Positions 5,962-33,293 of a stretch of DNA of 64,000 nucleotides are shown piece after piece. Every line of letters begins with the position of its first letter. Position 1 is the stretch's first letter. The notes under the pieces were generated by a model. That model did no database searches, had not been told where the DNA came from, and saw only the letters and a program-made list of their open reading frames with translations. The position numbers and the translations under genes were made by a program. The DNA lies in assembly GCF_000214375.1 (NCBI RefSeq), contig NC_015578.1, positions 1-64,000 on the forward strand, given 5' to 3'. The stretch comes from Treponema primitia ZAS-2. Lineage in GTDB: Bacteria; Spirochaetota; Spirochaetia; Treponematales; Breznakiellaceae.

Positions 5962-6002
5962 ACGCTAAGAGTCCGTTTTCGTGGGGGGTTCTTGGCTGGG
6001 TG

Positions 6003-12438: not shown

Positions 12439-13743
12439 ATGCAATTTAGGTCTACACGGTCACAAAGTCCACTTGTTTCTTTTAAGGATGTGATCCTGCG
12501 CTGTTTGCCCTCAGACGGTGGGCTCTATGTTCCCGCAACAGTGCCTGATATGCGGCAGTATTTTCTTTATATGGATACGGATACCAGCTTTCCCGAACTG
12601 GTAGCCACCGTGGCTCCGGCCTTGCTACAGGGGGAGCTGAATCCTTTTTCCGCAGCCCGGGTAGCCGAAAGCGCCTTTGACTTTGAGCCGGAACTGATAC
12701 AGCTGGATGATAATTTTTCAGTATTAAGTCTTTATAACGGACCTACCGGTGTGTTTAAAGATTTTGGTGTTGCTTTCCTGGCAGCGGTTATGGAGGAACT
12801 CCTCAAAAATGAGGGTCAGGCCATGATACTTTCTGCAGCCCGGGAAGATACGGGGTTCAGCATAGCCCATGCCTTTTCCGGACGCAAAGGCATAACTTCG
12901 GTTATACTCTACCCTTCCGGGCCTGTCCGGGGCTTGGATCCAAAGTCCTATAGTACCAATGGGGGCAATGTTATTCCCATACAGCTTCGGGGTACCTTTG
13001 ACGATTGCCAGCGTATTATCATCGAAGCCATAAAGGACCTGCCCTTTGCGGATCGCTACAGTATTACCACGGCCAATGCAATAAACATAGGCCGACTCCT
13101 TCCCCAGGTTTTTTATTACCTTTATGCTTTTATTAAACTGAAAAAGAAATTGTCCGGGGATCTTCTTTTCAGTGTACCGGCGGGAAATTTCGGCAATTTG
13201 ATAGCCGGTCTCTATGCCTGGAAGATGGGGATGCCCGTAAACGGTTTTATTGCCGCCATGAACGCCAATAATGCTTTTGGGGACTATATTAGGGGGGGAG
13301 AATTTAAACCGGGAAAATTGATTCAAACCAATTCTCCGGCCCTGGATGTGAGTGCGCCGTCAAATTATGAACGGCTGGCGTCATTCTATGGTGAAGCGCC
13401 GGCGGTGATGCGGAATATGGTATATCCCGATGCTATCGATGATAAGACTACCCTGCTGGCCATAGAAAAGGCCTGGAAAAAATACCATATTATGCTGGAT
13501 CCCCACGGCGCAGTGGCCTTTGCTGCTGCCCAGCGTTTATCCCAATCCAAAGGGTTTAACGGCCATGTGGTGGTCCTTGCCACCGGGCACCCGGCTAAAC
13601 ATGCCGACCTGGTCACGCAAGCCACCGGACAGCCGGTTGATATTCCGGAAAAATTTACCAATCTTTGGAAAAAGACCGATCCCATGGCGGATATTCCGCC
13701 TCAACTTGATGCCCTTGAAGGAGCCATAGCCAGCTGTAGTTAA
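12439..13743 (+). CDS. thrC: Threonine synthase
   Basis: PLP enzyme converting O-phosphohomoserine to threonine. The 434 residues follow the E. coli/yeast-type ThrC pattern: an N-terminal SDGGLYVP segment, the PLP lysine in GPTGVFKDFG (Lys107) and the SVPAGNFGNLIAGLYA phosphate-binding loop. A second, structurally different threonine-synthase-like gene lies at 20160, so this one is the likely housekeeping enzyme. Confidence 0.92.
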   Translation: MQFRSTRSQSPLVSFKDVILRCLPSDGGLYVPATVPDMRQYFLYMDTDTSFPELVATVAPALLQGELNPFSAARVAESAFDFEPELIQLDDNFSVLSLYNGPTGVFKDFGVAFLAAVMEELLKNEGQAMILSAAREDTGFSIAHAFSGRKGITSVILYPSGPVRGLDPKSYSTNGGNVIPIQLRGTFDDCQRIIIEAIKDLPFADRYSITTANAINIGRLLPQVFYYLYAFIKLKKKLSGDLLFSVPAGNFGNLIAGLYAWKMGMPVNGFIAAMNANNAFGDYIRGGEFKPGKLIQTNSPALDVSAPSNYERLASFYGEAPAVMRNMVYPDAIDDKTTLLAIEKAWKKYHIMLDPHGAVAFAAAQRLSQSKGFNGHVVVLATGHPAKHADLVTQATGQPVDIPEKFTNLWKKTDPMADIPPQLDALEGAIASCS

Positions 13744-15316: not shown

Positions 15317-16303
15317 TTACCGGTCAAGCCTGCCTTCATCGATCCATCGGGCCAGTTGGGGGGCGTAATAGGTGATCAGTATCCGTGCGCCGGCCCGGAA
15401 GATGCTAATTGTTGCTTCGGATACTACACGGGGTTCATCCAAAAGGCCCGCCTTGGCGGCGGCGCGCAGCATGGCGTATTCACCGCTTACGCTATAGGCG
15501 GCTACAGGCAGCAGGGAATCTGACGCGACCCGGTACAGAATATCCAGGTAGGGTAAAGCAGGTTTCACAATCAGGATGTCGGCGCCTTCTTCCGTATCAA
15601 GCCGGGCTTCTCGCAGGGCTTCCTTGGCGTTGTGGGGGTCCATCTGGTACCCCTTCCGATCCCCAAAGGCTGGGGCTGAACCCGCTGCGTCCCGGAAGGG
15701 GCCGTAAAAGGCGGAGGCATATTTTACCGCATAGGACATGATCGCCCGTTGCTCGAACCCTTCGCTGTCCAGGGCGGAGCGGATTGCACCGACTCTCCCG
15801 TCCATCATATCCGAAGGGGCGACTATATCGGCCCCTGAGCGGACATGGGACAGGGCGGTTTTGGCCAGAAGGGGCAGGGTTTCGTCGTTTTGAACAATGC
15901 CGTCCTTTATCACCCCGCAGTGGCCGTGGCTGGTGTATTCGCAGAGACAGACGTCGGTAATAACCGTAAGTTCGGGAAAAGCCCGCTTTGCTTCTCTAAC
16001 CGCCCTTTGAACCGGGCCGTTTTCGTCCCAGGCGGAACTTCCGGTTTCGTCCTTATGATCCGGAAGGCCAAAGAGCAGGATGCTCCGTACCCCTGCGGAT
16101 ACCGGTTCTTCCAGCAAAAAGGGCAGCTTGTCCGGGGTGCAGCGTTTCTGTCCATCCAGGGAGGGGATGTCCTCTACAATGCCCTGTCCCTCCCGGATGA
16201 AGAGGGGATAGACCAGGGCGTTTTTGGAAACCCGGGTTTCCATGACCATAGACCTGAGCCCTTCGTTTGCACGCAGCCTGCGCGGACGCTCTGTTAAATC
16301 CAT
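15317..16303 (-). CDS. hemB: Delta-aminolevulinic acid dehydratase (porphobilinogen synthase)
   Basis: Condenses two 5-aminolevulinate molecules to porphobilinogen. The 328 residues show the metal-binding cysteine cluster DVCLCEYTSHGHCG and the two active-site lysines in SYAVKYASAFYGPFRD and LIVKPALPYLD. It is the last gene of a six-gene minus-strand operon (carrier protein, JAMM peptidase, Met8-like, hemC, cobA-hemD, hemB) and abuts cobA-hemD directly. With its neighbours it supplies tetrapyrrole for siroheme. No hemA or hemL is present in the window. Confidence 0.96.
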   Translation of the reverse strand: MDLTERPRRLRANEGLRSMVMETRVSKNALVYPLFIREGQGIVEDIPSLDGQKRCTPDKLPFLLEEPVSAGVRSILLFGLPDHKDETGSSAWDENGPVQRAVREAKRAFPELTVITDVCLCEYTSHGHCGVIKDGIVQNDETLPLLAKTALSHVRSGADIVAPSDMMDGRVGAIRSALDSEGFEQRAIMSYAVKYASAFYGPFRDAAGSAPAFGDRKGYQMDPHNAKEALREARLDTEEGADILIVKPALPYLDILYRVASDSLLPVAAYSVSGEYAMLRAAAKAGLLDEPRVVSEATISIFRAGARILITYYAPQLARWIDEGRLDR

Positions 16304-17884
16304 TTAATTATTTCCTTTTTTGTTGTGGATTAAATCACAGAGAAGCTGCACCATGGCGTTGGTACTTGCTTCTGCCGGAACATAGGTTTCCATGCCGTAT
16401 TCCTGGGCTTTTTTTGCCGTACCTTCGCCGATACAGACTGCCTTGACCGGTTTCTGCAGGAAGTCTCCACGGTTTTTTCCAAAGGTTTCCCTAAAGGTGC
16501 TTACTGCCGAAGGGCTGGTGAAGAACAGATAATCAAAACGCCCCTCCCCAATGACCTGCCGGGCATAATCCCCTATTACCGCAGGAACCGTATCGTAGAC
16601 CGTTAACTCCCGAAAGGAGGCGCCGCTATTAGAGAGGATTTCTCCCAGGTCCGGTGCGCCCTGCCGGGGACGGATTAGGAGGATTTGTTCTTTGGGATTT
16701 ATTTTCTTTACCAGTTCTTCACCCAAACTCCGTCCATTATAGACCTGGGGAACATGGTCAGCAATAAATCCACGCCATTTCAGGGCTTCCGCTGTAGCGG
16801 GTCCTATCGCAGCAAAGCGACAGGCAGAAAAACTGCGGAGATCGCCTCCTCCGCAGAGATACTGATCAAAGAACATATCTACCCCGGTTGAACTAGTAAA
16901 TACTATCCACCCGGTGAATCTCTCTGAAAAAAGGGGGCCGGCGTCATTCTCCAGGGGTATGGTTTTGATGCACGGGATAGGGAGGGCTTCTCCGCCGAGT
17001 TCCCGTATCCGCCGGCAGAGGTCGGCATTTCCCGGTTCGGGTCGGGTTACCACAATGCGAATTCCCTCTAGGGTCCGGTTCCCGCAGTCCGGCGAGTTCT
17101 TCTCCTGAAGGCGAGCTTCCTGTGCTTGGGCTTCTACCGGCTGGATTTGGCTGGGCGCTGTTGGTTTTCCTAAAGAGCAGACATGGCCGATCACTATTAA
17201 CGCCGGAGAAACGAGACCTTCAAAGTCTGCGGTTTCTCCCATCCTGTTCAGGGCGGTAATCCAGGTCCGTTGCTGGGGGCTTGAGCCTTGTGAAATAATT
17301 GCAGCGGGAAGATCCGGGTTAAATCCCGCTTTTATCAGGCGGACACTTATGTCTTTCAACGCTGCGGATCCCATGAGGATAACCAGGGAGCCTCCTGCCT
17401 GGGAAAGACCGGTCAGGGCTTCATCGGTGGGGGTCCCCTCTTTTCTTTGCCAGGTAATGATGTGAACCGAGGAACTCAGGTCCCGGTGGGTCAGGGGAAT
17501 ACACGCATTCGCCGGAACCGCAAGGGCGGAGCTAATACCACTTATCACTTCAACAGGAATTTTCTTTGCAGTAAGGATTTGGACTTCCTCACCGCCCCGG
17601 CCAAAAAGATAGGGGTCTCCTCCCTTGAGCCGGACAACCTGTTCTCCCCGGAGTGCCTCTTCAAGCAATATGCGGTTTATTTCTTCCTGAGGAACAGGAT
17701 GGTTTCCCGAAGATTTTCCAACGTTGATAAGCCGGGCTTCCGGGGGAATGGTCCAAAGTATGGCTTCAGAAACCAGTCGGTCATAAACAACCACAGTGGC
17801 TTGCTGTAAGGTTTCTTTTCCCTTCAAAGTTAATAGTCCCGGATCTCCCGGCCCGGCGCCCACAAGCCAAACTTTACCCTTCAT
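16304..17884 (-). CDS. cobA-hemD: Fused uroporphyrinogen-III methyltransferase and uroporphyrinogen-III synthase
   Basis: 526 residues with two enzymes. Residues 1-245 are the SAM-dependent methyltransferase making precorrin-2 (VWLVGAGPGDPGLLTLKG; LKGGDPYLFGRGGEE). After a Gln/Glu-rich linker, residues 270-520 form the HemD synthase (IRIVVTRPEPGNADL; a VFTSSTGVDMFF loop). Such fusions are known from clostridia and other anaerobes. The gene overlaps hemC by four bases. It commits uroporphyrinogen to siroheme or corrinoids rather than haem. Confidence 0.95.
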   Translation of the reverse strand: MKGKVWLVGAGPGDPGLLTLKGKETLQQATVVVYDRLVSEAILWTIPPEARLINVGKSSGNHPVPQEEINRILLEEALRGEQVVRLKGGDPYLFGRGGEEVQILTAKKIPVEVISGISSALAVPANACIPLTHRDLSSSVHIITWQRKEGTPTDEALTGLSQAGGSLVILMGSAALKDISVRLIKAGFNPDLPAAIISQGSSPQQRTWITALNRMGETADFEGLVSPALIVIGHVCSLGKPTAPSQIQPVEAQAQEARLQEKNSPDCGNRTLEGIRIVVTRPEPGNADLCRRIRELGGEALPIPCIKTIPLENDAGPLFSERFTGWIVFTSSTGVDMFFDQYLCGGGDLRSFSACRFAAIGPATAEALKWRGFIADHVPQVYNGRSLGEELVKKINPKEQILLIRPRQGAPDLGEILSNSGASFRELTVYDTVPAVIGDYARQVIGEGRFDYLFFTSPSAVSTFRETFGKNRGDFLQKPVKAVCIGEGTAKKAQEYGMETYVPAEASTNAMVQLLCDLIHNKKGNN

Positions 17885-18882
17885 CGACGGCCGCCTTCCG
17901 GCGCGTCTCGCTGCGGAGTCCTGCCGGGATCCCGGCTTGCAGCTTGGATGAGCCGACGGGCTAATTCTTCCGCCAACTGAAGGGCGTGTCGCCGATCACC
18001 GGAAATTTCCTCCCGGGCGAAGGGTATTTCATCTATATTAGTAACATTGGCTAGGCCGATTCCTTCGGTTTCCAGGGGAGTATACATACCGGTAATAAAA
18101 ATTTCATTTCCCGAGATTTTTGCATAGGCGGCAGCGGGGGATGAGCAGCCGCATCCCAGGGTTCTGATAAGAGCCCGTTCAGCTAGCGCCTCCTCTTCGG
18201 AAATCGGGTCACGTAAAAGCTCCAGGAAGGGGTAGTCTTCACCACGCCGGCCTTGAATCGCAAGGGTACCCTGGCCTGCGGCGGGGATCATTTCCTGTAG
18301 GGAAAAAAGACGTCCACCCTGACGGGTAATGCCTAACCGTTCCAGCCCTGCAGCCGCAAGGATCAGTGCCCCGTATTGACCACTGTCAAGTTTGGACAGG
18401 CGGGTGGGAACATTGCCCCGGATCGGGGCGCTATGCAGCTCGGGGGCAAGTGCCTGGAGTTGAATACGCCGCCGGAGACTGGAACAGCCGATGGGGAGAG
18501 CCTTTTCAAGGGCTGTAAAAATATCTTTTTCATCTTTGCCCTGGAAAAAATCCTGGGGTGGAATTAGCATATCCCAGGGATTACCCCGTTTTGGTATTGC
18601 CAGGATGGGCAGATCCTCTGGCTGGGTTTCCGCCATATCCTTAAGGCTGTGAACGCAGAGGTCCAGTTCCCCCGCAACTAGGGCCCGCTCTAAAGTACCG
18701 GTAAAAAGGGCCTTCCCAGTGAAGCCCAGGGGCAGGTCCGGGTTAAGATCCCCTTCGGATTTCATGGTAACCAACCGCAGGGATAGTTCAGGATGGGCCC
18801 GCATAATGGGGTCCATGATTAGGCGGGTTTGAGCTATGGCCAATACGCTTTCCCTGCTGCCTATACGAATTTCACGAATCAA
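17881..18882 (-). CDS. hemC: Porphobilinogen deaminase (hydroxymethylbilane synthase)
   Basis: Joins four porphobilinogens into hydroxymethylbilane. It contains the expected GSRESVLAIAQT start, the HSLKDM and SSLRRRIQL motifs, and the dipyrromethane-binding cysteine in LGCGCSSPAAAYA. The C-terminal ~18 residues (RDPGRTPQRDAPEGGRR) are a charged extension outside the usual fold. It overlaps both neighbours by four bases, which indicates tight operon coupling. Confidence 0.95.
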   Translation of the reverse strand: MIREIRIGSRESVLAIAQTRLIMDPIMRAHPELSLRLVTMKSEGDLNPDLPLGFTGKALFTGTLERALVAGELDLCVHSLKDMAETQPEDLPILAIPKRGNPWDMLIPPQDFFQGKDEKDIFTALEKALPIGCSSLRRRIQLQALAPELHSAPIRGNVPTRLSKLDSGQYGALILAAAGLERLGITRQGGRLFSLQEMIPAAGQGTLAIQGRRGEDYPFLELLRDPISEEEALAERALIRTLGCGCSSPAAAYAKISGNEIFITGMYTPLETEGIGLANVTNIDEIPFAREEISGDRRHALQLAEELARRLIQAASRDPGRTPQRDAPEGGRR

Positions 18883-19457
18883 TGCGTTTGCTCCTCAAGT
18901 ATTTCGGAGATCAGACGGTCCAGTTCCTCAACTATAGAAGCAGTATTCTTCGTTTTCTTGAGACGGTGGCGCTGTTCTTTGAGTAATTCCAGGGACTTCC
19001 CAAGATCAGGAGACCAGGCTTCATCAAGACGTTCTCGAAGCCGCGCTGCCAGACGGGGACAGGCTCCGGAGGTGGAAATACCTGCGATCAGATCTCCCCG
19101 CCGTACTAGAGCAGGGAAGAAAAAGGTACACAACTCCGGGTCATCCGCAATATTTACGGGTATCCCCGCATCTTTGGCGTCCTGGGCTATCCGGGCGTTC
19201 AGTTCCCGGTTATCGGTAGCGGAGATTACCAAGCTTGCCCCGGCTAAATCTTCCGGGCCGCCATAGGGGCGCTCTTTCAGGATGATGCGGGCCAGCCGGG
19301 AAAGGGAGTGGACTTCCTCTGAGGCCTTTGTTGTTAGGACAAGGACCTTTGCCCCAAAATCGCTTAGGGCCTGCATTTTTCGGGCTGCCACCGGACCGCC
19401 GCCCACCACCACACAATGCTGACCATTCAAGTCCACGAATAGGGGAAAAAAGGGCAT
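18879..19457 (-). CDS. Precorrin-2 dehydrogenase / ferrochelatase-like protein (Met8, CysG N-terminal type)
   Basis: 192 residues with a Rossmann dinucleotide site (VVVGGGPVAARKMQAL) and the family signature STSGACPRLAARLRERLD. It oxidises precorrin-2 to sirohydrochlorin with NAD and may insert iron to give siroheme. It starts one base after the JAMM peptidase stop. Together with hemC, cobA-hemD and hemB it completes the route from aminolevulinate to siroheme, the cofactor needed by the sulfite reductase at 33290. Confidence 0.92.
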   Translation of the reverse strand: MPFFPLFVDLNGQHCVVVGGGPVAARKMQALSDFGAKVLVLTTKASEEVHSLSRLARIILKERPYGGPEDLAGASLVISATDNRELNARIAQDAKDAGIPVNIADDPELCTFFFPALVRRGDLIAGISTSGACPRLAARLRERLDEAWSPDLGKSLELLKEQRHRLKKTKNTASIVEELDRLISEILEEQTH

Positions 19458-19458
19458 G

Positions 19459-19863
19459 CTATACCTGAACCGGTTCTTCTGAAGCGGCGCCGTTCCGGAT
19501 GATAAAACTTTTCAGTGCCGGGTCCGGGTCTTTTAAGGAGATGATAATGTAGCTTAAGGAGGGATCGAAGGCGAGACGTATATCCTCTTCCGAAGGCCGG
19601 GCGGGAGTAGCAGGGTGGCTGTGGAAGTTGCCCAGCAGGGTGTAGCCCTTTTTTCGTATATCCGCGATAGCCTTAAACTGTTCTTCCGGGGCCATGGAAA
19701 AATGTTCTGCGCTTTTGTCTGTATTGGTAAGGCAGTATACCGCCTTGACGGTTTTTTCGTTCCCTACAGTTTCGCCCGCAAAGAGACCGCAGGCTTCGTT
19801 GGGAAGCCCCTGGACCGCATGGGCTATCATGAGGTCAAAATGCTCCTTGGGCAGGATCAGCAT
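19459..19863 (-). CDS. JAMM/MPN+ metallopeptidase, probable sulfur-carrier processing enzyme
   Basis: 134 residues with a complete JAMM zinc site: Glu23, the HSHP pair (His81, His83), Ser91 and Asp94 in the exact H-x-H-x7-S-x2-D spacing. Small bacterial members such as Mec+ of Mycobacterium and HcyD of Wolinella act on ThiS-like sulfur carriers. Mec+ releases cysteine from the carrier and HcyD trims its C-terminus. The gene overlaps the carrier gene by seven bases. The carrier ends in Gly-Gly-Arg-Cys, so trimming of the last two residues is the likely job (inference). Confidence 0.85.
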   Translation of the reverse strand: MLILPKEHFDLMIAHAVQGLPNEACGLFAGETVGNEKTVKAVYCLTNTDKSAEHFSMAPEEQFKAIADIRKKGYTLLGNFHSHPATPARPSEEDIRLAFDPSLSYIIISLKDPDPALKSFIIRNGAASEEPVQV

Positions 19864-20069
19864 CTTCCACCGCCGCCCATATAGTAGAGAAATTCAACAA
19901 CAGCGCCTTCTTTCACCAGGGTGGTGTCAAAGTTGGCCCGCAAAATCATTTCATCGTTTAGCTGGACACTGACATATTCGGGCATTTCAACCTTGGCTTC
20001 TTCAAGCAGCTTGCTGACGCTGATTTCCCCGGAAACTTCAATTTTTTTTCCATTTGTTGTAACTGTCAC
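19857..20069 (-). CDS. ThiS/MoaD-like sulfur carrier protein with C-terminal Arg-Cys extension
   Basis: 70 residues, ubiquitin-like (TVTTNGKKIEV start; LNDEMILRANFDTTLVKEGAVVEFLYYMGGGG end), the usual ThiS size. Activation requires a free C-terminal Gly-Gly, but this protein ends GGGG-Arg69-Cys70, so it must be clipped first; the adjacent JAMM peptidase is the obvious candidate. I choose the GTG at 20069 because GGAGG lies 8 bases upstream. The longer reading from 20129 has an N-terminus unlike the family and no such site. First gene of the siroheme operon. Confidence 0.82.
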   Translation of the reverse strand: MTVTTNGKKIEVSGEISVSKLLEEAKVEMPEYVSVQLNDEMILRANFDTTLVKEGAVVEFLYYMGGGGRC

Positions 20070-20159: not shown

Positions 20160-21362
20160 ATGAAAAGTTCTATAACTGGACTGATATGTCCCAAGTGTCA
20201 CGCGCATTATGATCACCGGGAATTGCAGGGCCTTTGCCGGTGCGGTTCTCCCCTGCTGGTCGAATATGATCTGATCAGTGTGGGTAAAAAGGTAAACCCG
20301 GACAAACTTCGGCACCGTCCTGCCACGCTCTGGCGCTATGGAGAACTGTTGCCGGTTCTGGATGAAAGCAATATTGTGTCCCTGGGCGAAGGTTTTACGC
20401 CCCTTACCCTACTTCCAAAAATTACCGCTAAATATGATTTTGGCAATCTGCTTATGAAGGACGAAGGAGTGATCCCTACCGGGACCTTCAAAGCCCGGGG
20501 CGCAGCGGTAGGGGTGTCCAAGGCTAAAGAATTGGGTGTGACCCATGTAGCTATGCCGACTAACGGTAACGCCGGAGCCGCCTGGGCAGTATACGCCGCC
20601 AGGGCTGGTATTTCGGCCCACATCCTCATGCCCGAGGATGCGCCCCGGATCACCAGAAATGAAAGCATAGCCGCCGGGGCAGAAGTGTACCTTGTCCAGG
20701 GGCTTATCAGCGACTGCGGCAAAATTCTGGCCCGGTCCATCCCTGCCCACGGCTGGTATGATGTCAGTACCCTCAAGGAGCCTTACCGTATTGAAGGCAA
20801 AAAGACCATGGGTTATGAAATTGTTGAACAATTAGGCTGGCAGGTTCCGGACGTCATTGCCTACCCCACAGGTGGCGGTGTGGGGATTATCGGGATTTAT
20901 AAGGCCTTAAAGGAGATGCAGGGATTGGGCTGGATCGGGGAGAAATTGCCCCGGCTGGTGGCGGTCCAGGCTTCCGGCTGCGCTCCCATTGTGGAGGCTT
21001 ACCGTAAAAAGGCAAAAGAAAGTGAATTTTTCCCCAATTCAAAGACAATCGCCTTCGGCATTAACGTTCCAAAGGCGCTGGGGGATTTTTTGGTCCTGGA
21101 AGCCCTGTATGAAACCGGCGGCTGTGCGGTCGCGGTGGAGGATCGGGAAATACTGGAATCCCTTGCGGAACTGGCTTCGACGGAGGGCGCCTTTGTCTGT
21201 CCGGAAGGCGCGGCGGTTCTGGCGGCCTTGAAAAGACTAAGGGCCGAAAACTGGCTCAAGGCGGACGAAACGGCGGTTTTGCTGAATACCGGCGCGGGTA
21301 TTAAATATCCCGATACCCTGCAATTTAAACTAAACTATTGCCCAGTGGATGGGACTATTTGA
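20160..21362 (+). CDS. Threonine-synthase-like PLP enzyme with N-terminal zinc ribbon
   Basis: 400 residues. An N-terminal zinc ribbon (Cys10, Cys13, Cys26, Cys28) precedes a fold-type II PLP domain with the PLP lysine in GTFKARG (Lys111) and a PTGGGVGIIGIYKA phosphate loop. This is the archaeal/plant-type threonine synthase architecture, which also gave rise to cysteate synthase. A regular thrC exists at 12439, and this gene lies between a sulfur-carrier operon and the sulfate operon, so a role in sulfur amino-acid synthesis is worth considering. Threonine synthase remains the default assignment. Confidence 0.75.
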   Translation: MKSSITGLICPKCHAHYDHRELQGLCRCGSPLLVEYDLISVGKKVNPDKLRHRPATLWRYGELLPVLDESNIVSLGEGFTPLTLLPKITAKYDFGNLLMKDEGVIPTGTFKARGAAVGVSKAKELGVTHVAMPTNGNAGAAWAVYAARAGISAHILMPEDAPRITRNESIAAGAEVYLVQGLISDCGKILARSIPAHGWYDVSTLKEPYRIEGKKTMGYEIVEQLGWQVPDVIAYPTGGGVGIIGIYKALKEMQGLGWIGEKLPRLVAVQASGCAPIVEAYRKKAKESEFFPNSKTIAFGINVPKALGDFLVLEALYETGGCAVAVEDREILESLAELASTEGAFVCPEGAAVLAALKRLRAENWLKADETAVLLNTGAGIKYPDTLQFKLNYCPVDGTI

Positions 21363-21473: not shown

Positions 21474-22541
21474 ATGAAAAGAGAAGGTTTTGGTAAAATA
21501 GTACCCTATGCATTAGTGGTTTCCCTGTTTTTTGCAGCGATAGGCGGGGTCAGTGCGGGCGGACAAAGCGCCTCCGCTGGTGGGACAGAACAGAAGGGCA
21601 GCGTTGAGTTGCTCAATGTTTCTTATGATCCCACCCGGGAGTTATACCGGGAGTATAACGATGCCTTTGCAAAGTATTACAAGGATAAGACCGGGGTTGA
21701 GGTAACCATCCGGCAGTCCCATGGCGGTTCCGGGGGACAGGCTCGGGGCGTTATTGAAGGTAACGAAGCGGATGTGGTTACCCTGGCATTGGCCTACGAT
21801 GTGATGCAGATAGGCGATAAGGCCGGCATCATTGACTCAAACTGGCAGACGAGGCTCCCAAACAACAGTTCCCCCTATACCTCGACCATCGTGTTTCTGG
21901 TGCGGGCGGGAAATCCCAAAAATATTAAGGATTGGGATGATTTGGTAAAGAGCGGCGTTCAGATCATAACCCCGGACCCCAAGACTTCCGGCGGGGCCCA
22001 GTGGAATTACCTTGCGGCCTATGCCTTTGCCAAGGAAAAATACGGCAGCGATGCCCAGGCCAGGGAATTTGTGAAACAGCTTTACAATAATGTCCCGGTC
22101 CTGGATTCCGGTGCCCGGGGGGCCACCAATACCTTTGTACAGAGGGGCCTGGGGGATGTGCTCCTGGCTTGGGAAAATGAGGCCTTCCTTTCTATCAATG
22201 AGCTTGGGAAGGATCAGTTTGAGATTGTGGTTCCTTCCCTGAGTATCCTGGCGGAACCCACGGTTTCCTGGGTGGACGGAATTACCTCCAGGCACGGAAC
22301 CCTTGAGGTGGCCAAGGAATACCTGAGCTACCTGTATTCCGATGAGGGCCAGAGGATAGCCGGGAGGAACTACTACCGTCCTTCAAACCCGCAGATAGCC
22401 CAGGAATTTGTGACCCAGTTCCCCAATTTGAAGCTGGTTCATATTGATGATTACTTCGGCGGCTGGAGAAAGGTTCACGATTACTATTTTTCTGACGGTG
22501 GGGAATTTGACACTATCATAGCGGAACTGAAGAAGAAATAG
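21474..22541 (+). CDS. sbp: Sulfate/thiosulfate-binding protein
   Basis: Periplasmic receptor for sulfate. The 355 residues begin with a signal peptide (about 1-29, hydrophobic, ending near SAGG) and match the Sbp/CysP family throughout: [17 protein letters not shown] at the start of the mature part, [16 protein letters not shown] in the ligand cleft and [11 protein letters not shown]. First gene of an operon that continues into cysT, cysW, cysA, cysH, cysD and cysN, which fixes the substrate as sulfate. Confidence 0.95.
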
Positions 22542-22550
22542 GGACGTAGT

Positions 22551-23396
22551 ATGGGAATAAGGATATTCGGACCGAAAAAGAACAGGGCCAAGCTCCCGGG
22601 TTTTGGATTAACCCTGGGTTTGTCCATGCTCTATATGACCATCCTTATCTTTATTCCCTTGAGCGCCCTCATCTTGTATTCCGCTAAGCTGCCGATTAAG
22701 GAATTCTGGGCCCTCATCTCGGATGAACGGGTTGTTACGGCTTTTAAAATTTCATTTTCATCAACTTTCTATGCGGCGGTTTTTAATTTTTTCTTCGGCC
22801 TCATCCTGGCCTGGGTTTTGACCAGGTATAATTTTTTTGGCAAGCGGGTTCTGGATGCCCTGATCGATCTGCCCTTTGCCATACCAACCGCAGTGGCAGG
22901 TATTTCCCTGGCCACCCTGTTTTCCAAAAACGGAATCCTGGGGGTCTTTCTGCATAAGTTCGGCATAGAGATTGCCTATTCAAAAGCAGGGATAGTAATA
23001 GCCTTGATCTTTATCGGGCTACCCTTTGTGGTACGGACCGTGCAGCCGGTTATCCAGGAACTGGACAAGGAGCTGGAAGAAGCCGCCAGCAGCCTGGGGG
23101 CGAATTTCTACCAGATTTTTTTTAGGGTACTTTTTCCCGCTATTTTTCCCGCCCTGCTTACGGGCTTTGCCCTGGCCTTTGCCCGGGGCCTGGGAGAGTA
23201 CGGTTCCATCATATTCATTTCCAGCAACATGCCCTACGAAACGGAAATCGTACCATTGTTGATAGTAAAGAAACTGTTACAGTTTGATTACCGGGGCGCC
23301 AGCGCCATCGGTGTAACCATGCTTGTTTGCGCCTTTGTACTTTTGCTTTTAATCAACCTTCTGCAGAGTTTTGCCCGGAGGAGGAAAATTAATTGA
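22551..23396 (+). CDS. cysT: Sulfate ABC transporter permease CysT (CysU)
   Basis: 281 residues with six predicted membrane helices and the ABC-permease coupling loop EEAASSLGANFYQIFFRVLFPAI. The family-specific LPFAIPTAVAGISLATLF stretch is present. It pairs with CysW to form the channel and overlaps cysW by four bases. Confidence 0.95.
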   Translation: MGIRIFGPKKNRAKLPGFGLTLGLSMLYMTILIFIPLSALILYSAKLPIKEFWALISDERVVTAFKISFSSTFYAAVFNFFFGLILAWVLTRYNFFGKRVLDALIDLPFAIPTAVAGISLATLFSKNGILGVFLHKFGIEIAYSKAGIVIALIFIGLPFVVRTVQPVIQELDKELEEAASSLGANFYQIFFRVLFPAIFPALLTGFALAFARGLGEYGSIIFISSNMPYETEIVPLLIVKKLLQFDYRGASAIGVTMLVCAFVLLLLINLLQSFARRRKIN

Positions 23397-24238
23397 GCGC
23401 CTATCATCGGCTCAACAAGGAGCCCCGCTGGATTAAACCGGTTTTAATAGCTATTTCCCTGATTTTTATGGCGGTATTTATTTTTATACCCCTCATAACC
23501 ATCTTCTCCCAGGCCTTTGACTCCGGGGTGGGCGCCTATTTTAAGGCTCTGGGCAACAAGGATATTTTTGCCGCCATACGGCTCACCCTGGTTACCGCCT
23601 TGGTCTGCGTTCCCCTCAATACATTCTTTGGCATTTTGCTTGCCTGGGCTATCACTAAATTTGATTTCAGGGGTAAAAATATTCTTATTACCCTTATTGA
23701 AGTACCCTTTGCCATTTCTCCGGTTATTGCGGGGCTGCTTTTTATTTTTCTCTTTGGTTCCTTTGGCTGGTTCGGACACTGGCTTATGGCCCATCATGTA
23801 AAAATTGTTTTCGCTGTTCCGGGTATTTTTATTGCCACCGCCTTTGTCACCTTCCCCTTTGTGGCCCGGGAACTGATTCCCCTGATGCAGGAGATGGGCA
23901 AGGATGATGAGGAGGCGGCCATGACCTTGGGTGCAAACGGCCTGCAAACCTTTTTCAGGATTACCCTGCCCAATATTAAGTGGGGGCTCCTGTACGGGGT
24001 GGTCCTGACCAACGCCCGGGCCATGGGTGAATTCGGCGCAGTGGCGGTGGTCTCCGGGCTTATCCGGGGGGTAACTACCACCATGCCGCTATACATTGAT
24101 ATCCTCTACGGAGAGTATCTGTTCCGGGCGGCCTTCGCGGTGGCCTCCCTCTTAACCCTCCTTGCCCTGGTAACACTTATTGCCAAAACTATCATTGAAC
24201 ATTTTATTGCGGAGCAGCGGAAATCCGCTGAAGTTTAA
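23393..24238 (+). CDS. cysW: Sulfate ABC transporter permease CysW
   Basis: 281 residues, six predicted helices, and the coupling loop [23 protein letters not shown]. It starts with TTG; the overlap with the cysT stop (TTGA) and the GGAGG site at about 23378 support this start. It completes the membrane channel with CysT. Confidence 0.95.
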
Positions 24239-24249
24239 GGAAGCGCCTT

Positions 24250-25317
24250 ATGAGTATAGAAATCGCGGGGATACATAAAAAATTCGGGGACTTTACTGCT
24301 CTGGAAAACGTCAACCTTTCTATTCCCACCGGGGAGATTACCGCCCTTCTGGGGCCCTCGGGCTCGGGGAAGACAACGTTACTGCGGATCATCGCCGGGC
24401 TTGAAACTCCCGATGCGGGAACCATCAGTCTATTCGGCGAGGATTCCACCAACAAGCAGACCAAGGATCGGAAGGTGGGCTTCGTCTTTCAGCACTACGC
24501 CCTGTTTAAACACATGAGCGTTTTTGAGAATATTGCCTTCGGTCTGCGGATTCGCCCCCGGAAGCTGCGGCCCTCTAAGGCGGAGATTCGCGATAAGGTC
24601 TTTAAGCTGCTTTCCCTGGTTCAACTGGAGTCCCTGGCGAACAGGCTGCCTTCCGAGTTAAGCGGCGGCCAGAAACAGCGGGTTGCCCTGGCCCGGGCCT
24701 TGGCCATTGAGCCCCGGGTACTGCTTTTGGACGAACCCTTCGGCGCCCTGGACGCCAAGGTGCGGCAGGAACTGCGGCGCTGGCTCCGGTTCCTCCACGA
24801 CGAAATCCACATTACCAGCGTGTTTGTGACCCATGACCAGGAAGAGGCTTTGGAGGTTTCGGATAATATTGTTATTCTGAATAAGGGAAAGGTTGAACAG
24901 GTCGGGTCCCCTGAAGACGTGTATGATCATCCGGCGAATCCCTTTGTATATGGATTCCTGGGTAATGTAAATCTCTTTCACGCCCGGCTGGACAAGGGGG
25001 TTCTTAACCTGGAACACCGGGAAGACGATCCCCAGGATGCGGATGTTTCATTCTTTGTCCGGCCTCAGGATGTTGCCATCAGCCTTACGAACGGGGATGG
25101 GCGGGGCATTGAAGCGCAAATTCTTACCCATAGAATTCTGGGGGGCAGGGTACGGGTGAACCTAAAAACTCTGGTGGGGGATAAAGAAATCGAAGCAGAT
25201 ATTGAAAAGAAACAGTGGAACCTTATAAAAGAAGAAAACAGGGATAGGGTGTATATCATTTTTTCCGGGGCTAAAATATACTCAAAGGATGAAGTTTGGA
25301 GCGACTATGCCATCTAA
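24250..25317 (+). CDS. cysA: Sulfate ABC transporter ATPase CysA
   Basis: 355 residues. The ABC domain has Walker [10 protein letters not shown], signature [14 protein letters not shown] and Walker [14 protein letters not shown], followed by a TOBE-like C-terminal regulatory domain (about 240-355, [11 protein letters not shown]). It powers the CysTW channel. The next gene, cysH, starts within its last codons. Confidence 0.95.
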
Positions 25318-26017
25318 CCGGATACTGGCCTCTATATTGGATAAGATCAGTGGCCCCATGGCCCTTGCGTTCAGCCATCAGGCGGAGGACGCCGCTGTAT
25401 TGCACCTGGTATTACAGTCCTTTCCGGAATTCGCTTCCGGGGGCTTAGAAGGATCGGGCCGGACTCTGGAAGTTTTTACCCTGGACACAGAAAAACTATT
25501 CCCCGAGACCCTCGCGTACCACGAAGAGGTGGAACGGTTTTTTAAAGTTCCCATTAAAAAGTACCGCCCCGATGGGGGTGAAGTCAAAAAACTGGAAGAA
25601 GAGCTTGGTGATGAATGGGGCATGCGGGGGAGCCTGGAAAAACGGCACCTCTGCTGCAAGGTAAGAAAGGTGGATGTCCTGGGCAAAGTCCTGGCGGGCA
25701 AGAGTGCCTGGATCACGGGCCTTCGGGCTGCCCAGTCGGTTACCCGGACGGGCCTTCAGGTTTTAGAATACGATGAACAGAACGGGCTTATCAAAATAAA
25801 CCCCCTGGCCGCCTGGAGCGACGATGACCTGGCTGCCTATATTAAAGAACATCAGATACCTCTTAACCCCCTGTATAGTGAGGGTTTTAAAAGTATAGGC
25901 TGCGCTCCCTGCACCCGGGCGGTGAAGGAAGGGGAGGATATACGGGCCGGCAGATGGTGGTGGGAAAACCCGGACCACAAGGAATGCGGCTTGCATAATA
26001 GAAGGAAAACAGGGTGA
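25307..26017 (+). CDS. cysH: Adenylylsulfate (APS) reductase, Fe-S type
   Basis: 236 residues. The cysteine pattern Cys116-Cys117 plus Cys199-x2-Cys202 is that of assimilatory APS reductases, which carry a [4Fe-4S] cluster and reduce APS directly; PAPS reductases lack it. The catalytic cysteine is Cys227 in the ECGLH tail. An APS kinase is therefore not required, and none is present here. I prefer the ATG at 25307 (GGAG five bases upstream) to the in-frame ATG at 25289; both overlap cysA. Confidence 0.93.
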
Positions 26018-26910
26018 GTGAAGAAACCGGATTGACAAAACTGGACAGGCTGGAATCCCAAAGTATTTTTATTATCCGGGAAGCCTATAAATCATTCAAG
26101 AACATCGGTATGCTCTGGTCCATTGGCAAGGATAGTACGGTGCTGTTATGGCTCGCCAAAAAAGCCTTCTTCGGCCATATCCCCTTTGAACTGATCCACA
26201 TCGATACTAATTATAAGATCCCCGAAATGATAGCCTACCGGGACCGGTTGGCAAAGGAACTGAAGCTGCGGCTTGTGGTGGGGCAGAACAAAAAAGCCCT
26301 GGCGGAAAAGCGGACCTTTGTGGATGGCCTGGACCGGATATCCTGTTGCAAGGAACTCAAAACCATACCCCTCAGGCAAACCCTGGACGGCGTTGGCGCC
26401 CGGCGGGTCTACGATCCTAACCGGGATGTATGGGAAGAGTTTGAGACCGCCGAACCCTACAACGCGGTGATCGTGGGGGTACGGAGTGATGAAGAGGGGA
26501 GCCGTTCCAAGGAGCGGGTTTTTTCCGCCAGGGACGAAAAGAGCGAGTGGGACGCCAGTGCCCAGCCTCCTGAATTGTGGAATCTTTACAAAACCGAGTT
26601 CGCCCCCAAGACCCATGTGAGGGTCCACCCCCTGCTGGACTGGACCGAGCTTAATATTTGGGAATACATTGAGCGGGAAAAGATACCCACCATTTCTATT
26701 TATTATAACCAGGGTGAAGGCAAACGCTACCGTTCCCTGGGCTGTTACCCCTGCACCAGCCCGGTGGATTCCGATGCCCGGAACCCCGGGGAAATTATTG
26801 AGGAACTTATCAGTGGCAAATTCCGTAATATCGCTGAACGGTCCGGCCGGGCCCAGGATATAGACGGGGGCGGTACCCTGGAAACCCTGCGGAAAGAGGG
26901 GTATATGTGA
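26014..26910 (+). CDS. cysD: Sulfate adenylyltransferase subunit 2
   Basis: The ATP-sulfurylase subunit that adenylates sulfate to APS together with the GTPase CysN. The 298 residues contain the PP-loop type motif ([18 protein letters not shown]) and family blocks such as [20 protein letters not shown] and [14 protein letters not shown]. It starts with GTG overlapping the cysH stop (GTGA). Confidence 0.96.
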
Positions 26911-28295
26911 TGGCTATAACAACGACGGTGGAAGCTGCCAACCGGGAGCGGATGGACATCGTTATTACCGGTCATGTGGACCACGGCAAGAGCACCCTGG
27001 TAGGCCGGCTTCTGGCGGATACCCAGTCCCTGCCGGAGGGTAAATTACAAGCCGTGAAAGATTCCTGTAAAAAAAACGGCCGGGTTTTTGAATACGCCTT
27101 TCTCCTGGACGCCCTGGAGGATGAACAGAAACAGGGCATTACCATCGACAGCGCCCGTATATTTTTTAAGAGCAAGGTCCGGGAGTATATTATCATCGAC
27201 GCTCCGGGGCATATCGAATTTTTGCGGAACATGCTGAGCGGTGCGTCCCGGGCAGTGGCGGCGGTGCTGGTAATCGACGCCGTTGAAGGGGTGGCGGAAA
27301 ATTCCAAACGTCACGGCCTCCTCCTCTCCCTCCTGGGGATATCCCAGGTCCTGGTAGTGGTGAATAAGCTCGACGCCTTGAACTATGATCGGCAGGTATT
27401 TGAGGATATTAAAAAAGAATATGTGGCCTACCTGGAAACCCTTAAGGTAAAGCCCCTGGCCTTTGTGCCGGTGAGCGCACGGGAGGGCAAGAACATTACC
27501 GAAGCTGCGTCGGAGATGCCCTGGTATACTGGAAAAACGGTTCTGGAGATCCTCGATAGTTTTCGTAATCTCCCCTCCAACGAGGATTCCTTTTTTGCCA
27601 TGCCGGTTCAGGATGTATACCGGTTCAGCAATGACAATGATGAACGGCGGATCTACGCCGGCACCATTGTAAGTGGGGAAATCAGCGTGGGGGAGTCCGT
27701 AACCTTTCTGCCTTCCCGCAAGGAAGCGCATATTAAAAACATTGAGGTTTGGAACGCGCCTTCTAAGACCAGGGCCATTACCGCTGAAGCATCAGGCTTT
27801 ACCCTGGAAGAGGAAATCTACGTGAAGCGGGGGGAGGTGATGGTCAAATCCGCCGAGAAAGCCCCGGTGCAGACCGCCGAACGGATTCGGGCCAATGTAA
27901 TTTGGCTTGGCGTCCGGCCCTTTAGTTTCAATAAGTCCTATCTGTTAAAATTGGGAAGCGCCCGGGCGGAAGTCCGGCTTGAAAAGATAGAAAGTTTCCT
28001 TGGCGAAGGCGAGCGGGAAGAGTACAGCGAACTCCGCCGTAACGACTGCGGCAGCGTGATCCTGAGCCTTTCCCGTCCCATGGCGGTTTCCGCTTTTTTT
28101 GACAACCCCGTTTTGGGGCGCTTTGTTATCGTGGACGGCTATGACGCCGCCGGCGGGGGCATAGTGCTGGAAAACCTGGATGCCAAAAAGACCTGGCAGA
28201 GCTTGAACAGCTTTGAGGGGGTCAACACCGGCGGGGGGTTTGAGGAAGAGCTTTTTGCGCTGCTGAAGAAGTATTTTCCCCATAGGTTCGAATGA
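26910..28295 (+). CDS. cysN: Sulfate adenylyltransferase subunit 1 (GTPase)
   Basis: 461 residues of an EF-Tu-like GTPase: G1 [10 protein letters not shown]3 DAPGH and G4 NKLD are intact. GTP hydrolysis drives APS formation by CysD. There is no C-terminal CysC (APS kinase) domain, which fits the APS-reducing type of CysH upstream. I use the ATG at 26910, overlapping the cysD stop by one base (TGATG); a GTG one codon earlier is also possible. Last gene of the sulfate operon. Confidence 0.95.
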
Positions 28296-28501
28296 TGCTG
28301 TTGAATTTGACCTTTATCGGTTGGAACAGGGAATCCGGATTAATGAAGCGGGAAAATTGAAATATACCGCGGGGAAGCGGTTTGAAAATAGTTTTGTTGG
28401 ATATTATTGGGATTGAAACGGAAATAGCGGTGTTTTAGCCGTGAACCCTAGTAATAACCTATAAATAATAATATACTGAGTGAAAATTGGAGATCAAAAC
28501 C
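28296..28501. other. Intergenic gap between cysN and the nitrogenase-like operon
   Basis: 206 bases. A weak hairpin (ACCGC/GCGGT at 28366-28381) lacks a proper T-run, so read-through from the sulfate operon is possible. An AT-rich stretch at 28450-28480 could hold a promoter, but no good hexamer pair was found. GGAG at 28489-28492 serves the NifH-like gene. Confidence 0.4.
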
Positions 28502-29380
28502 ATGGGTAATCAGAAAGGAAAACACATTGCCATTTACGGCAAAGGCGGTATCGGGAAATCGACCACTACCTCCAATATCAGCGCCTCCCTGGCCGAGGCG
28601 GGATTTAAGGTAATACAGATAGGCTGTGACCCGAAAAGCGATTCCACTAATGTCCTACGGGGGAATGAATATCTGCCCACCGTGCTGGACAGTATGCGGG
28701 ATGGCGGAAAGGTCCACCTGGATGATATTTCCAGGGCCGGATTTGGAGGGGTGCTGTGCATCGAATCCGGCGGGCCGGTGCCGGGTGTTGGCTGCGCGGG
28801 TCGGGGGATCAATGCCGCAGTAACTTTGCTGCAGGAACTGCATCTTTTTGACGAATTCAAGCCTGATTATGTGCTCTACGATGTGCTGGGGGACGTGGTA
28901 TGCGGAGGCTTTGCCGTACCCATCCGGGACGGGATCACCGACCGGGCCTATGTGGTCAGTTCCTCGGATTTTATGGCCATCTATGCTGCAAATAATCTTT
29001 TTAAGGCCATCAGCAAATATGCCCCTTCAGGGGGAGCAAAGCTGGGGGGCATCATCGGCAATGGCCTTTCGGCGGGATATTCCCAAAGCATCATCGACGA
29101 TTTTGCCCAAAAGACCGGTACAAAAGTGACGGGCTATATTCCCCGGTCTCTGGTTGTTTCCCAGAGCGAGCTCTACGGAAAAACGGTAATTGAGGCAAGT
29201 CCTGAATCGGAACATGCAAAACTGTACCGCGCTCTGGCAAAGACTGTAGCGGAAAATGAGGATTTGATGGTACCCAACCCCTTGGCGACCACAGAGCTGC
29301 GTTCCTGGGCAAAGGACTGGGGCGACAAGGTCTTTAAACTAGAGGAAGGGATAGTTGTAGGCAGCAGGGAAGCAATTTAA
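28502..29380 (+). CDS. NifH-like ATPase / reductase component of a nitrogenase-like enzyme
   Basis: 292 residues. All NifH hallmarks are present: P-loop GKGGIGKST (13-21), the two [4Fe-4S] cysteines Cys98 (GVGCAGRG) and Cys134 (DVVCGG), and Arg101 at the site ADP-ribosylated in true NifH. It should form a Fe-S-bridged homodimer passing electrons to the DK-like partner. The ATG at 28502 is chosen because GGAG lies nine bases upstream. It is followed by D-like and K-like genes only; no nifE, nifN or nifB is in the window. It stands directly downstream of the sulfate operon. Confidence 0.92.
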   Translation: MGNQKGKHIAIYGKGGIGKSTTTSNISASLAEAGFKVIQIGCDPKSDSTNVLRGNEYLPTVLDSMRDGGKVHLDDISRAGFGGVLCIESGGPVPGVGCAGRGINAAVTLLQELHLFDEFKPDYVLYDVLGDVVCGGFAVPIRDGITDRAYVVSSSDFMAIYAANNLFKAISKYAPSGGAKLGGIIGNGLSAGYSQSIIDDFAQKTGTKVTGYIPRSLVVSQSELYGKTVIEASPESEHAKLYRALAKTVAENEDLMVPNPLATTELRSWAKDWGDKVFKLEEGIVVGSREAI

Positions 29381-29389
29381 GAAAAACCA

Positions 29390-30799
29390 ATGGCATTACT
29401 TGAAAGCAGAAAAGCGCTGACTAGAGAGAAACGAAACGGCGCGATCAGTCATTATCACGGGACCCTGGCGTCCATCTTGGAAGATAGTTCGGGGAAAGAA
29501 CTTCAGTCCCGGGTCCGTACCTTAACCCAGAGCTCCCCGGGTGAAATAATATACGCCCTGCAGGCGGTAAGCGGCATTCATGATGCGGTGGTGATTATCC
29601 ATGGCGCTTTGGGATGCGCCGCATCGGGGGTATGGTTTAATTCGGGCGAAAATCGCTCCTGGTATACCACCAACCTGAATGAAAGCGATACTATTCTTGG
29701 GGGTGACGAAAAACTGCGGGCTGCTATTCTGCGGGCTTATAATGAAAATCATCCTGAAGCAATTTTTATCATCGGAACCCCCATCATAGCAATCAATAAT
29801 GATGATGTGGATTCGGTGGTCATTGAGCTGAGCGACGAACTTGGATGTAAAATTATTTATATAGATGTAAACGGCTTTAAAACAAAAAATGCCCTTTCCG
29901 GGTATGATGTGATTTTTCATGGGTTCCTGAAACATCTGGTGGAACCAAAGCAAAATCCGGTCAAGCCCTTTCTCAATCTTTTTACTGTATCGGAAAGTCC
30001 TGATAACGTGGCCGCAATCGTAGAACTGCTTCAGGTTCTTGATATTCCCTGCAACATTGTACCCCGGTTTTCCGGCCTTAATGGGATACGCCGTGCTTCC
30101 GGGGCCCTTTGCAGTGTTTCTCTGGACGATGCGGAAAATGAATATATAATGACCGGGCTTGAAGAACAGTATGGGGTTCCTGTGGTAAAAACAAATCCGC
30201 CTATAGGCACCGCAGGGGTTTATGATTTTATTAAAAAAATTGCCGCCCACTTTGACCGGAATGCACAGGCGGAGACGCTGATAAAAGACGAGGAACAGAA
30301 GATCAGCGGCCGACGCAGTAAGAAACCATTCGCAGGTAAAAAGATTCTACTGGAGGCGGATTTGCACCGAGTCGTGAGTTTTTCCTCATTGATTGAAGAA
30401 TTGGGGGGAGAAATATCCGGCATTGTAATCCCTCATTTGGATATTCAGAATGCGGGTAAATTAAAAGACCTTTCGATACTGCCCAGAACCGTACCTTTTA
30501 TAGTGGCCCAGGGGCAGCAGTTTGAAATTGCCAATGTTCTGAATAGATATCCGGCGGATTTTTATATAGGGCGATCCGAAACTGCGGCTGCGGCAGCCCG
30601 GTTTGGCGCAATTCCTCTTCCCCTTGATGGGATTACCTATTATGGGTATCGGGGGATCGGCGAAGTGGTAAAGCGGGCTTTGAAGCTGGGGACGAATAAT
30701 AACTATGTTTCTTTGCTGGGCCAGAAATTGGGGGCACCCTATTCTGAATCATGGCTCAAGCGAAGCGGAAACTGGTATGTCAAATTTGAGGTAAAGTAG
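29390..30799 (+). CDS. NifD-like subunit of a nitrogenase-like enzyme (degenerate cluster ligands)
   Basis: 469 residues of the nitrogenase component 1 family. Only one of the three NifD P-cluster cysteines is clear: Cys76 in HGALGCAAS. By position, the first is replaced in TQSSPGE (Ser48/Ser49) and the third by Thr130 in GTPIIAINNDD. Cys241 could stand where NifD holds its cofactor cysteine, but the spacing differs. The histidine that binds FeMo-co has no counterpart near DGITYYGYRGIGE. It therefore should not bind a standard P-cluster or FeMo-co. Located 9 bases after the NifH-like gene. Confidence 0.82.
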   Translation: MALLESRKALTREKRNGAISHYHGTLASILEDSSGKELQSRVRTLTQSSPGEIIYALQAVSGIHDAVVIIHGALGCAASGVWFNSGENRSWYTTNLNESDTILGGDEKLRAAILRAYNENHPEAIFIIGTPIIAINNDDVDSVVIELSDELGCKIIYIDVNGFKTKNALSGYDVIFHGFLKHLVEPKQNPVKPFLNLFTVSESPDNVAAIVELLQVLDIPCNIVPRFSGLNGIRRASGALCSVSLDDAENEYIMTGLEEQYGVPVVKTNPPIGTAGVYDFIKKIAAHFDRNAQAETLIKDEEQKISGRRSKKPFAGKKILLEADLHRVVSFSSLIEELGGEISGIVIPHLDIQNAGKLKDLSILPRTVPFIVAQGQQFEIANVLNRYPADFYIGRSETAAAAARFGAIPLPLDGITYYGYRGIGEVVKRALKLGTNNNYVSLLGQKLGAPYSESWLKRSGNWYVKFEVK

Positions 30800-30801
30800 C
30801 C

Positions 30802-32160
30802 ATGCATGAAGTACTGAAGAATTCCCGTCATGGGTGCGATCTGCACGGCGCCCTGCAAACCCTGGAAGAACTTTCCGGCGTAGCGGCGGTGGTACATGCC
30901 AACGCCGGCTGTGTGTATCAGCATTATTTGGCGGACCGGGCTGGCCATCTGGCTGGCGGGAGTGTTTATGGGCCGGAGATACCCTCTACTGAGGTTATTG
31001 AAAAGCAAATCGTTTTCGGCGGGGCATCCCGTCTGCGGGAAGAACTCAAAAATGCGGCTAAGGTAATTGACGGATCATTGTATATCATCCTGGGAAGCTG
31101 TGAAGCTGCCATGGTGGGGGATGATCTGGCGGCCATGACCAAGGAAGCTACCGATATTGCTCTGCCGGTTATTTTTTATTTTTCCGCAGGATTTAAGGGA
31201 GGCAGCCACTGGGGTTATGCTAATATTATGCGCGTCATTATACAGCAGCTGCCCTCGGTGAGAAAATTTAGCTCGGAAAAAATACCTGGTTTGGTTAATG
31301 TCTTAGGTATACTGCCTAAGGCGGATATCTTTTATAAAGGGGATATCCGGGAGATAAAACGACTCCTGGAAACTGCGGGATTGACGGCCAACACTTTTTT
31401 TGGGCCCCGGGACGGCGTAGCAGAACTGGAACGGAGCGCCCTGGCGGAGCATAGCCTGGTGTTTTCCCATTGGGGGCTTGCCGCTGCAGAACAGTTGAAA
31501 GAACAATACGGCATTCCCTATACGTTTTTTGAAAGTCTGCCCTTGGGAATCGAAGGAACAGCGGCATTTTATAAACAGCTTTCATCGGTGATTAAAATTG
31601 ACGAGACGAGAACCACTGCTTTTCTGGGACAGGAAGAAGAACAATACCGCTATTACCTAAAATCCCTGACCGATGTCTATTTTGGAGAAACCCTGCAGAA
31701 AAACACAGCCCTGGTGGGGGACATCAGTACCGTAAAACGAATAAGCCCCTTTTTGGAACATTCCCTGGGCACGGTGATTCATACAGCAGTACTAACCGAT
31801 GTATATACCCACGGTAAGGAAGAAGCCCGGCCTCCGGTTCCTGAGGGATTGGCCGGAGAAGTTTTTAAGACCGATGACAGCGCGGAAATTGATCAGATCC
31901 TGAGTGATGCGGATGTGGAGATGGTCCTGGGAAGTGCTCTGGAAGAGGATGCTGCGAAGCGCCTCAAAATTCCCCACCTTACCATTTCGACCCCTAATGG
32001 AAACCAGGTTCTGCTCCACAAGACCTACGCGGGGATCACGGGCGCGTATTTTCTTCTGGAAGACTATGCAAGCGCAGTCTTGCGGAACAATGCAGAACAG
32101 CGGGAGGAAAAACGGCGTTTTTTAAAAAGCCTGGACGTTTTCCAAGAGCCTTTATCTTAA
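30802..32160 (+). CDS. NifK-like subunit of a nitrogenase-like enzyme
   Basis: 452 residues of the component 1 family. Three cysteines lie where NifK has its P-cluster ligands: Cys12 (SRHGCDLHG), Cys37 (ANAGCVYQ) and Cys100 (ILGSCEAAMVGDD). With Cys76 of the D-like partner they could hold one [4Fe-4S] cluster in a three-plus-one manner, as in protochlorophyllide reductase-type relatives. The start is two bases after the D-like stop. The substrate is unknown; the sulfur-gene neighbourhood suggests reduction of a sulfur compound (inference). Confidence 0.82.
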   Translation: MHEVLKNSRHGCDLHGALQTLEELSGVAAVVHANAGCVYQHYLADRAGHLAGGSVYGPEIPSTEVIEKQIVFGGASRLREELKNAAKVIDGSLYIILGSCEAAMVGDDLAAMTKEATDIALPVIFYFSAGFKGGSHWGYANIMRVIIQQLPSVRKFSSEKIPGLVNVLGILPKADIFYKGDIREIKRLLETAGLTANTFFGPRDGVAELERSALAEHSLVFSHWGLAAAEQLKEQYGIPYTFFESLPLGIEGTAAFYKQLSSVIKIDETRTTAFLGQEEEQYRYYLKSLTDVYFGETLQKNTALVGDISTVKRISPFLEHSLGTVIHTAVLTDVYTHGKEEARPPVPEGLAGEVFKTDDSAEIDQILSDADVEMVLGSALEEDAAKRLKIPHLTISTPNGNQVLLHKTYAGITGAYFLLEDYASAVLRNNAEQREEKRRFLKSLDVFQEPLS

Positions 32161-33038: not shown

Positions 33039-33293
33039 TTAAGAGGACAGCCCGCCCTTGACTACGGTGAGAAGCCAGGTTCCGTCCTCAGTTTTAGTAA
33101 CATTGGTTACCTTATGTCCTTCGTCCTTGAGGCTTCGGGGTACGTTTTGAATGGGTTCTCCGTCGTTGAGCCGGACTTCCAGTACCTGGCCGTCCTCCAG
33201 CTCTTCCAGTGCTACCTTGGTTTTAACAAAGGTCACTGGGCATACCACGGTAGTGATGTCTACCCGGGCGTCAATTTGCAGGGCATCGCTCAT
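33039..33293 (-). CDS. TusA-like sulfur transfer protein
   Basis: 84 residues of the TusA/SirA fold with the conserved cysteine in TTVVCPVTFVKTKVAL; the classical CPxP is CPVT here, so the second proline is missing. TusA proteins pass persulfide sulfur between partners. It overlaps the sulfite reductase gene by four bases, which suggests it handles the sulfide product or relays sulfur to the E1/carrier pair. Confidence 0.82.
   Translation of the reverse strand: MSDALQIDARVDITTVVCPVTFVKTKVALEELEDGQVLEVRLNDGEPIQNVPRSLKDEGHKVTNVTKTEDGTWLLTVVKGGLSS

Follow-up and report, generated by a model that had tools for sequence, protein, structure and literature searches.

The window analysed here, a 64-kb stretch of DNA (positions 1 to 64,000 of contig NC_015578.1 of Treponema primitia ZAS-2), contains a small ThiS-like sulfur carrier gene overlapping a JAMM peptidase gene, with genes for siroheme synthesis and for sulfate uptake and reduction around them. 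The features are as follows.

15317-18882, minus strand: hemB, cobA-hemD, and hemC (siroheme synthesis), by profile matches
18879-19457, minus strand: precorrin-2 dehydrogenase (siroheme synthesis), by profile matches
19459-19863, minus strand: HcyD-like JAMM/Prok-JAB peptidase, 134 aa, with HSHPATPARPSEED at residue 81, by PF14464 match and zinc-site residues
19857-19863, minus strand: ATGCTGA, the carrier stop overlapping the JAMM gene start, by sequence and the overlap shared in relatives
19857-20069, minus strand: HcyS-like sulfur carrier, 70 aa, GTG start, end EFLYYM-GGG-GRC, by ThiS fold and profile matches
19860-19868, minus strand: predicted tail codons GGA AGA TGC (Gly-Arg-Cys) 3' of the conserved Gly-Gly-Gly, with the register taken from GGG-A in L153 and an alignment of nine spirochaete carriers
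21474-25317, plus strand: sulfate ABC transporter, the binding protein by profile, the two permeases and the ATPase from sequence and order only
25289-28295, plus strand: cysH, cysD, and cysN (sulfate activation and reduction), by profile matches
32180-33028, minus strand: HcyF-like E1 of the MoeB/ThiF family, without a rhodanese domain, by profile and homology
33290-34156, minus strand: siroheme sulfite reductase of AsrC/Dsr-like type, by TIGR02912, below its cut-off
51714-53819, plus strand: MetY (O-acetylhomoserine sulfhydrylase), fused in frame with an N-terminal QueG-like Fe-S protein, by profile matches

The carrier starts with GTG at position 20069, 3' of GGAGGA, and its C-terminal end is EFLYYMGGGGRC (19857-20069, minus strand), the last codons being GGC GGC GGT GGA AGA TGC TGA. 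It matches TIGR01683 thiS at 51.3 bits (cut-off, 37.45) and PF02597 at 36.4 bits, and combines, as expected of HcyS, a ThiS fold with a C-terminal Gly-Gly(-Gly) followed by a tail. The peptidase matches PF14464 (Prok-JAB) at 90.3 bits and carries an intact zinc site consisting of Glu23 and an HxHx7SxxD motif (H81-S-H83-x7-S91-x2-D94), the latter kept in 122 of 123 distinct relatives. Its ATG start lies within AGATGCTGA, so that the two genes share 7 bases (19857-19863). The initial annotation, which described a 70-residue ThiS-like carrier with two extra residues overlapping by seven bases a peptidase with a complete JAMM site, thus holds for the carrier, the ATGCTGA overlap, and the zinc site, but not for the length of the tail, for which homology gives three residues. 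Among solved structures, PDB 2K5P aligns with the HcyS family through EFLYFMGGG (91.9 bits), and PDB 2KKS is the closest relative of the peptidase (E 1.8e-46); 2K5P/3CWI were deposited as ThiS, with no homocysteine-route function assigned, and 2KKS as an uncharacterized protein, without the function considered here. The JAMM protein had no match among the viral contigs searched.

Genes for HcyD, HcyF, MetY, and the enzymes leading from sulfate to sulfide all occur within the window, although hcyF, sir, and metY lie outside the hcyS operon, 12 to 32 kb away, which weighs against the assignment that follows. This gene set (sulfate uptake and reduction, siroheme synthesis, HcyF-like E1, sulfite reductase, and MetY) points to a HcyS/HcyD/HcyF/MetY system of the Wolinella type, the comparison that had been drawn at the outset and that is further backed by identities of 57% (HcyF), 54% (MetY), 51% (JAMM), and 47% (HcyS) to the proteins of genome G583, which we take to be Wolinella succinogenes. 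The two genes very probably encode the carrier (HcyS) and the peptidase (HcyD) with which homocysteine is made by the protein-thiocarboxylate route, with the content of the tail set mainly by the gene overlap.

The 701-aa fusion of a QueG-like protein with MetY recurs in the sister genome G310, presumably T. azotonutricium, where residues 6-701 match at 72%, and G764 has it in two fragments. Within the sulfate-assimilation block, a NifH-like and two NifD/K/E-like genes (28487-32160, plus strand) score below all NCBIfam cut-offs for nitrogenase, Bch, and CfbC, and possibly encode a sulfur-related nitrogenase-like reductase of the methylthio-alkane or isethionate type. A PRK08197-type threonine synthase gene (20160-21362, plus strand) is transcribed divergently from the carrier gene, and a further ThrC is encoded at 12439-13743. 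The synthase gene does not adjoin the carrier in the sister genome; at L242, a homologous PLP enzyme is flanked by a CysO-like carrier on one side and a JAMM gene on the other. In addition, the same genome holds a second carrier locus (L001; G000:C1:459745-463002) with CysM, JAMM, a CysO/SAMP1-like carrier, and a MoeZ-like E1. The L001 carrier ends AIAGG-TSRG, and related carriers end AGG-IQG (G310) and AGG-RE (G415).

Tails were compared across 95 distinct HcyS carriers, comprising sequences from a species-genome scan (query, the alignment of nine spirochaete carriers; more than 500 relatives, 80 kept) and carriers from further searches. This survey of C-terminal tails in homologues, proposed in the initial annotation, finds [END]FLY[FY]MGGG common to all 95 and a variable tail after the invariant FLY[FY]MGGG in 94. 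One carrier has no tail, 34 have one residue, 33 two, 10 three, and 16 between 4 and 28, while one runs on into HcyF, so that no more than three residues follow the glycines in 78 of the 95. The tails seen most often are A, AR, R, Q, and SR, with SC and SLW among the further examples; no sequence is conserved among the 95, which rules out the tail as a conserved signal. Since Gly-Gly-Gly is the conserved block, the fourth Gly of the T. primitia carrier probably belongs to the tail, which on this alignment is probably Gly-Arg-Cys rather than Arg-Cys. HcyS of G583 ends GGG-A, and Wolinella HcyS reportedly loses a single C-terminal Ala; the homologous cut would therefore fall after the third Gly, leaving Gly-Arg-Cys here, and a cut after the fourth Gly instead is possible.

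Two variants were seen alongside these carriers. In a metagenome assembly (L069, near match at 6001-6201), HcyS and HcyF are encoded in a single 395-aa frame with the junction GGG-SMNLTESQIERY. Selenomonadales loci L070, L071, L073-L075, L079, and L104 encode, approximately 3 kb from the tailed carrier, another HcyS-like one (VEIVCFMGGG) that has either no tail or a tail of a single residue.

Where hcyF or hcyD comes next, the carrier stop overlaps or abuts the start of that gene in 79 of 88 cases (ATGA, GTGA, TAATG, or ATGCTGA), and in the termite-gut treponeme group the gene after the carrier is hcyD. The sister genome G310 has the identical ATGCTGA overlap with tail GGG-SC, and tails extend over the JAMM start in 12 further metagenome relatives; a sequencing error at the gene end, considered earlier as a possible source of the Arg-Cys codons, is thereby ruled out. 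The overlap (A/G)TGCTGA, with a JAMM start of (A/G)TG CTG, always gives TGC (Cys) as the last carrier codon (8/8), and ATGGTGA, with a JAMM start of ATG GTG, always gives TGG (Trp; 4/4), which ties the terminal Cys to the gene overlap and not to product chemistry. Sister carriers end in Trp, Pro, Ser, or other residues. The tail residues are set largely by the overlap of the two genes, rather than by special chemistry.

These patterns bear on two other ways of reading the pair. The initial annotation had raised the possibility that the last Cys marks a product, in the manner of CysO-cysteine; HcyS-Arg-Cys would then be a conjugate or template that releases cysteine. A C-terminal Cys is indeed present here and in the seven relatives sharing the overlap. 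However, in CysO-cysteine the Cys is added posttranslationally to a Gly-Gly end by a CysM-type enzyme, whereas here it is encoded by a TGC that overlaps the JAMM start codon in 8/8 cases and gives way to Trp in the ATGGTGA relatives; that role also has a locus of its own in this genome, CysO-like/JAMM/CysM/MoeZ. A CysO-cysteine mimic was accordingly rejected, and we give the product reading almost no credence. It is also very unlikely, if somewhat less so, that the carrier serves thiamine synthesis or another ThiS role and not homocysteine. NCBIfam assigns it to ThiS above cut-off, but the model does not discriminate HcyS from ThiS, and the carrier belongs to the FLYFMGGG clade found with hcyF, JAMM, sir, and metY. 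Moreover, no thiamine genes were noted adjoining it, and the window holds sulfate assimilation genes and MetY.

The link between tails and JAMM genes extends to ThiS-type carriers, which in JAMM-less genomes end directly after the glycines and are tailed only alongside a JAMM gene. Across 200 genomes of Campylobacteria, a Prok-JAB gene above the family cut-off is found in 17/17 tailed versus 2/121 untailed-only genomes (Fisher p 7e-20, ignoring descent), and across 148 genomes of Clostridia, JAMM is found in 6/6 tailed versus 3/46 untailed genomes (Fisher p 4e-6, ignoring descent). In the latter, all 6 tailed genomes have JAMM matches of at least 70 bits, and the 3 in untailed genomes are weaker, longer relatives. 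Most untailed states were taken from the stop position given by the search, with which fetched DNA agreed where checked. A tree of 51 ThiS-type carriers contains at least 8 tail changes, and independent pairs never go in the wrong direction; 4 of them have branch support, too few for significance (p 0.125-0.5). The converse does not hold, as untailed ThiS in the JAMM-positive genomes G412, G423, G446, G447, and G611 indicates that JAMM does not force a tail. Taken together, a tail predicts JAMM, but JAMM does not require a tail. ThiS-type carriers encoded far away from the JAMM gene can be tailed as well, and G583 has a single JAMM gene and two tailed carriers, HcyS (GGG-A) and a ThiS-type carrier (GGG-ER). 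In L235 (1880-3466, minus strand) and L236 (3-803, plus strand), ThiS-type carriers with tails R and RS are in frame with an upstream gene, GlmU-like in L235.

From the genes, tail, overlap, and tail-JAMM association observed here we infer the following course, cleavage bond and chemistry included. HcyS would be synthesized as a precursor ending Gly-Gly-Gly-(Gly-Arg-Cys), and HcyD, given the association of tails with JAMM genes, would most likely remove the tail by cleaving after the third glycine. The glycine thus exposed would be adenylated by the HcyF-like E1 (32180-33028) and then converted to a thiocarboxylate with sulfide that the sulfate-reduction enzymes supply; MetY would couple it to O-acetylhomoserine, after which HcyD would free homocysteine from the adduct. 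A peptidase required anyway for product release would tolerate, and hence permit, tails.

The tail may instead be needed in itself, as a pro-peptide that holds HcyS inactive until HcyD acts, with selection keeping some tail. The tailed state of 94 of the 95 HcyS carriers and the shortness of the tails (at most three residues in 78/95, below random read-through lengths) would fit this, but short tails also follow from the gene overlap, the tail sequence is unconstrained, and L083 has no tail yet has HcyF and JAMM nearby. In addition, a neutral single-base model expects approximately 4.7% untailed carriers, from which 1/95 is not clearly lower (P = 0.06, ignoring descent). We therefore consider a pro-peptide rather unlikely; neutral tolerance suffices to explain the tails, given a peptidase that is retained to release the product. 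A broader proposal, which falls slightly short of an even chance in our judgment, is that JAMM peptidases are general, sequence-tolerant maturases for several carriers and let tails spread, including to ThiS-type carriers. With one JAMM facing two tailed carriers in G583, both thiamine and methionine would there depend on HcyD.

The carrier and JAMM peptidase thus represent a typical case of a bacterial sulfur-delivery system already known from homocysteine synthesis, and the odd Arg-Cys end, corrected by homology to a probable Gly-Arg-Cys, needs no new chemistry. What is new in the literature searched is the family-wide picture, namely, the variety of tails, their origin in gene overlap, and a tail-JAMM rule extending to ThiS-type carriers. 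For annotation, a ThiS-like carrier with residues past its glycines would lead one to expect a JAMM maturase somewhere in the genome, and the rule predicts that a single JAMM protease would serve several carriers as maturase, ThiS among them in Wolinella-like bacteria.

Among known systems, CysO/Mec+/CysM of Mycobacterium likewise joins a carrier and JAMM in a cysteine route and has its counterpart here in the CysO/SAMP1-like locus at 461 kb, but its carrier is of a clade unlike that of the HcyS-like carrier. Mycobacterium CysO ends in a free Gly-Gly, in contrast to the AGG-TSRG of the T. primitia CysO-like carrier. QbsE/QbsD (thioquinolobactin; Godert 2007, described in PMC6006322) and PtmS1/PtmS2/PtmS3 (thioplatensimycin) share a one- or two-residue cap after the glycines and a JAMM protease partner, yet belong to siderophore or antibiotic thioacid pathways rather than to homocysteine. 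The caps are MV in PtmS2 and C in PtmS3, capped carriers require a protease, as with QbsD, and product was abolished on deleting the JAMM gene ptmS1, not on deleting ptmS2 (PMC6006322). Two-residue and Cys caps processed by JAMM enzymes are thus already known from QbsE, PtmS2, and PtmS3, and with tails of 1 to 28 residues of almost any sequence usual in HcyS, the earlier view of Arg-Cys removal as a variant activation step is not sustained. The gene cluster is type 4e of Iyer, Burroughs and Aravind 2006 (PMC1779556), whose Table 1 lists Wolinella under this operon type; the portion of that account available here contains no analysis of tails. The closest match is the Wolinella succinogenes HcyS/HcyD/HcyF/MetY system (Krishnamoorthy and Begley 2011, JACS 133:379, as cited in PMC5764234), with which the T. 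primitia locus shares the carrier family, JAMM, E1, MetY, sulfate-reduction genes, and a tail after Gly-Gly-Gly. It differs in that the Wolinella tail is one Ala arising from overlap with hcyF, whereas here a probable Gly-Arg-Cys arises from overlap with hcyD, the genes are scattered over 38 kb, and the sulfite reductase is of another type.
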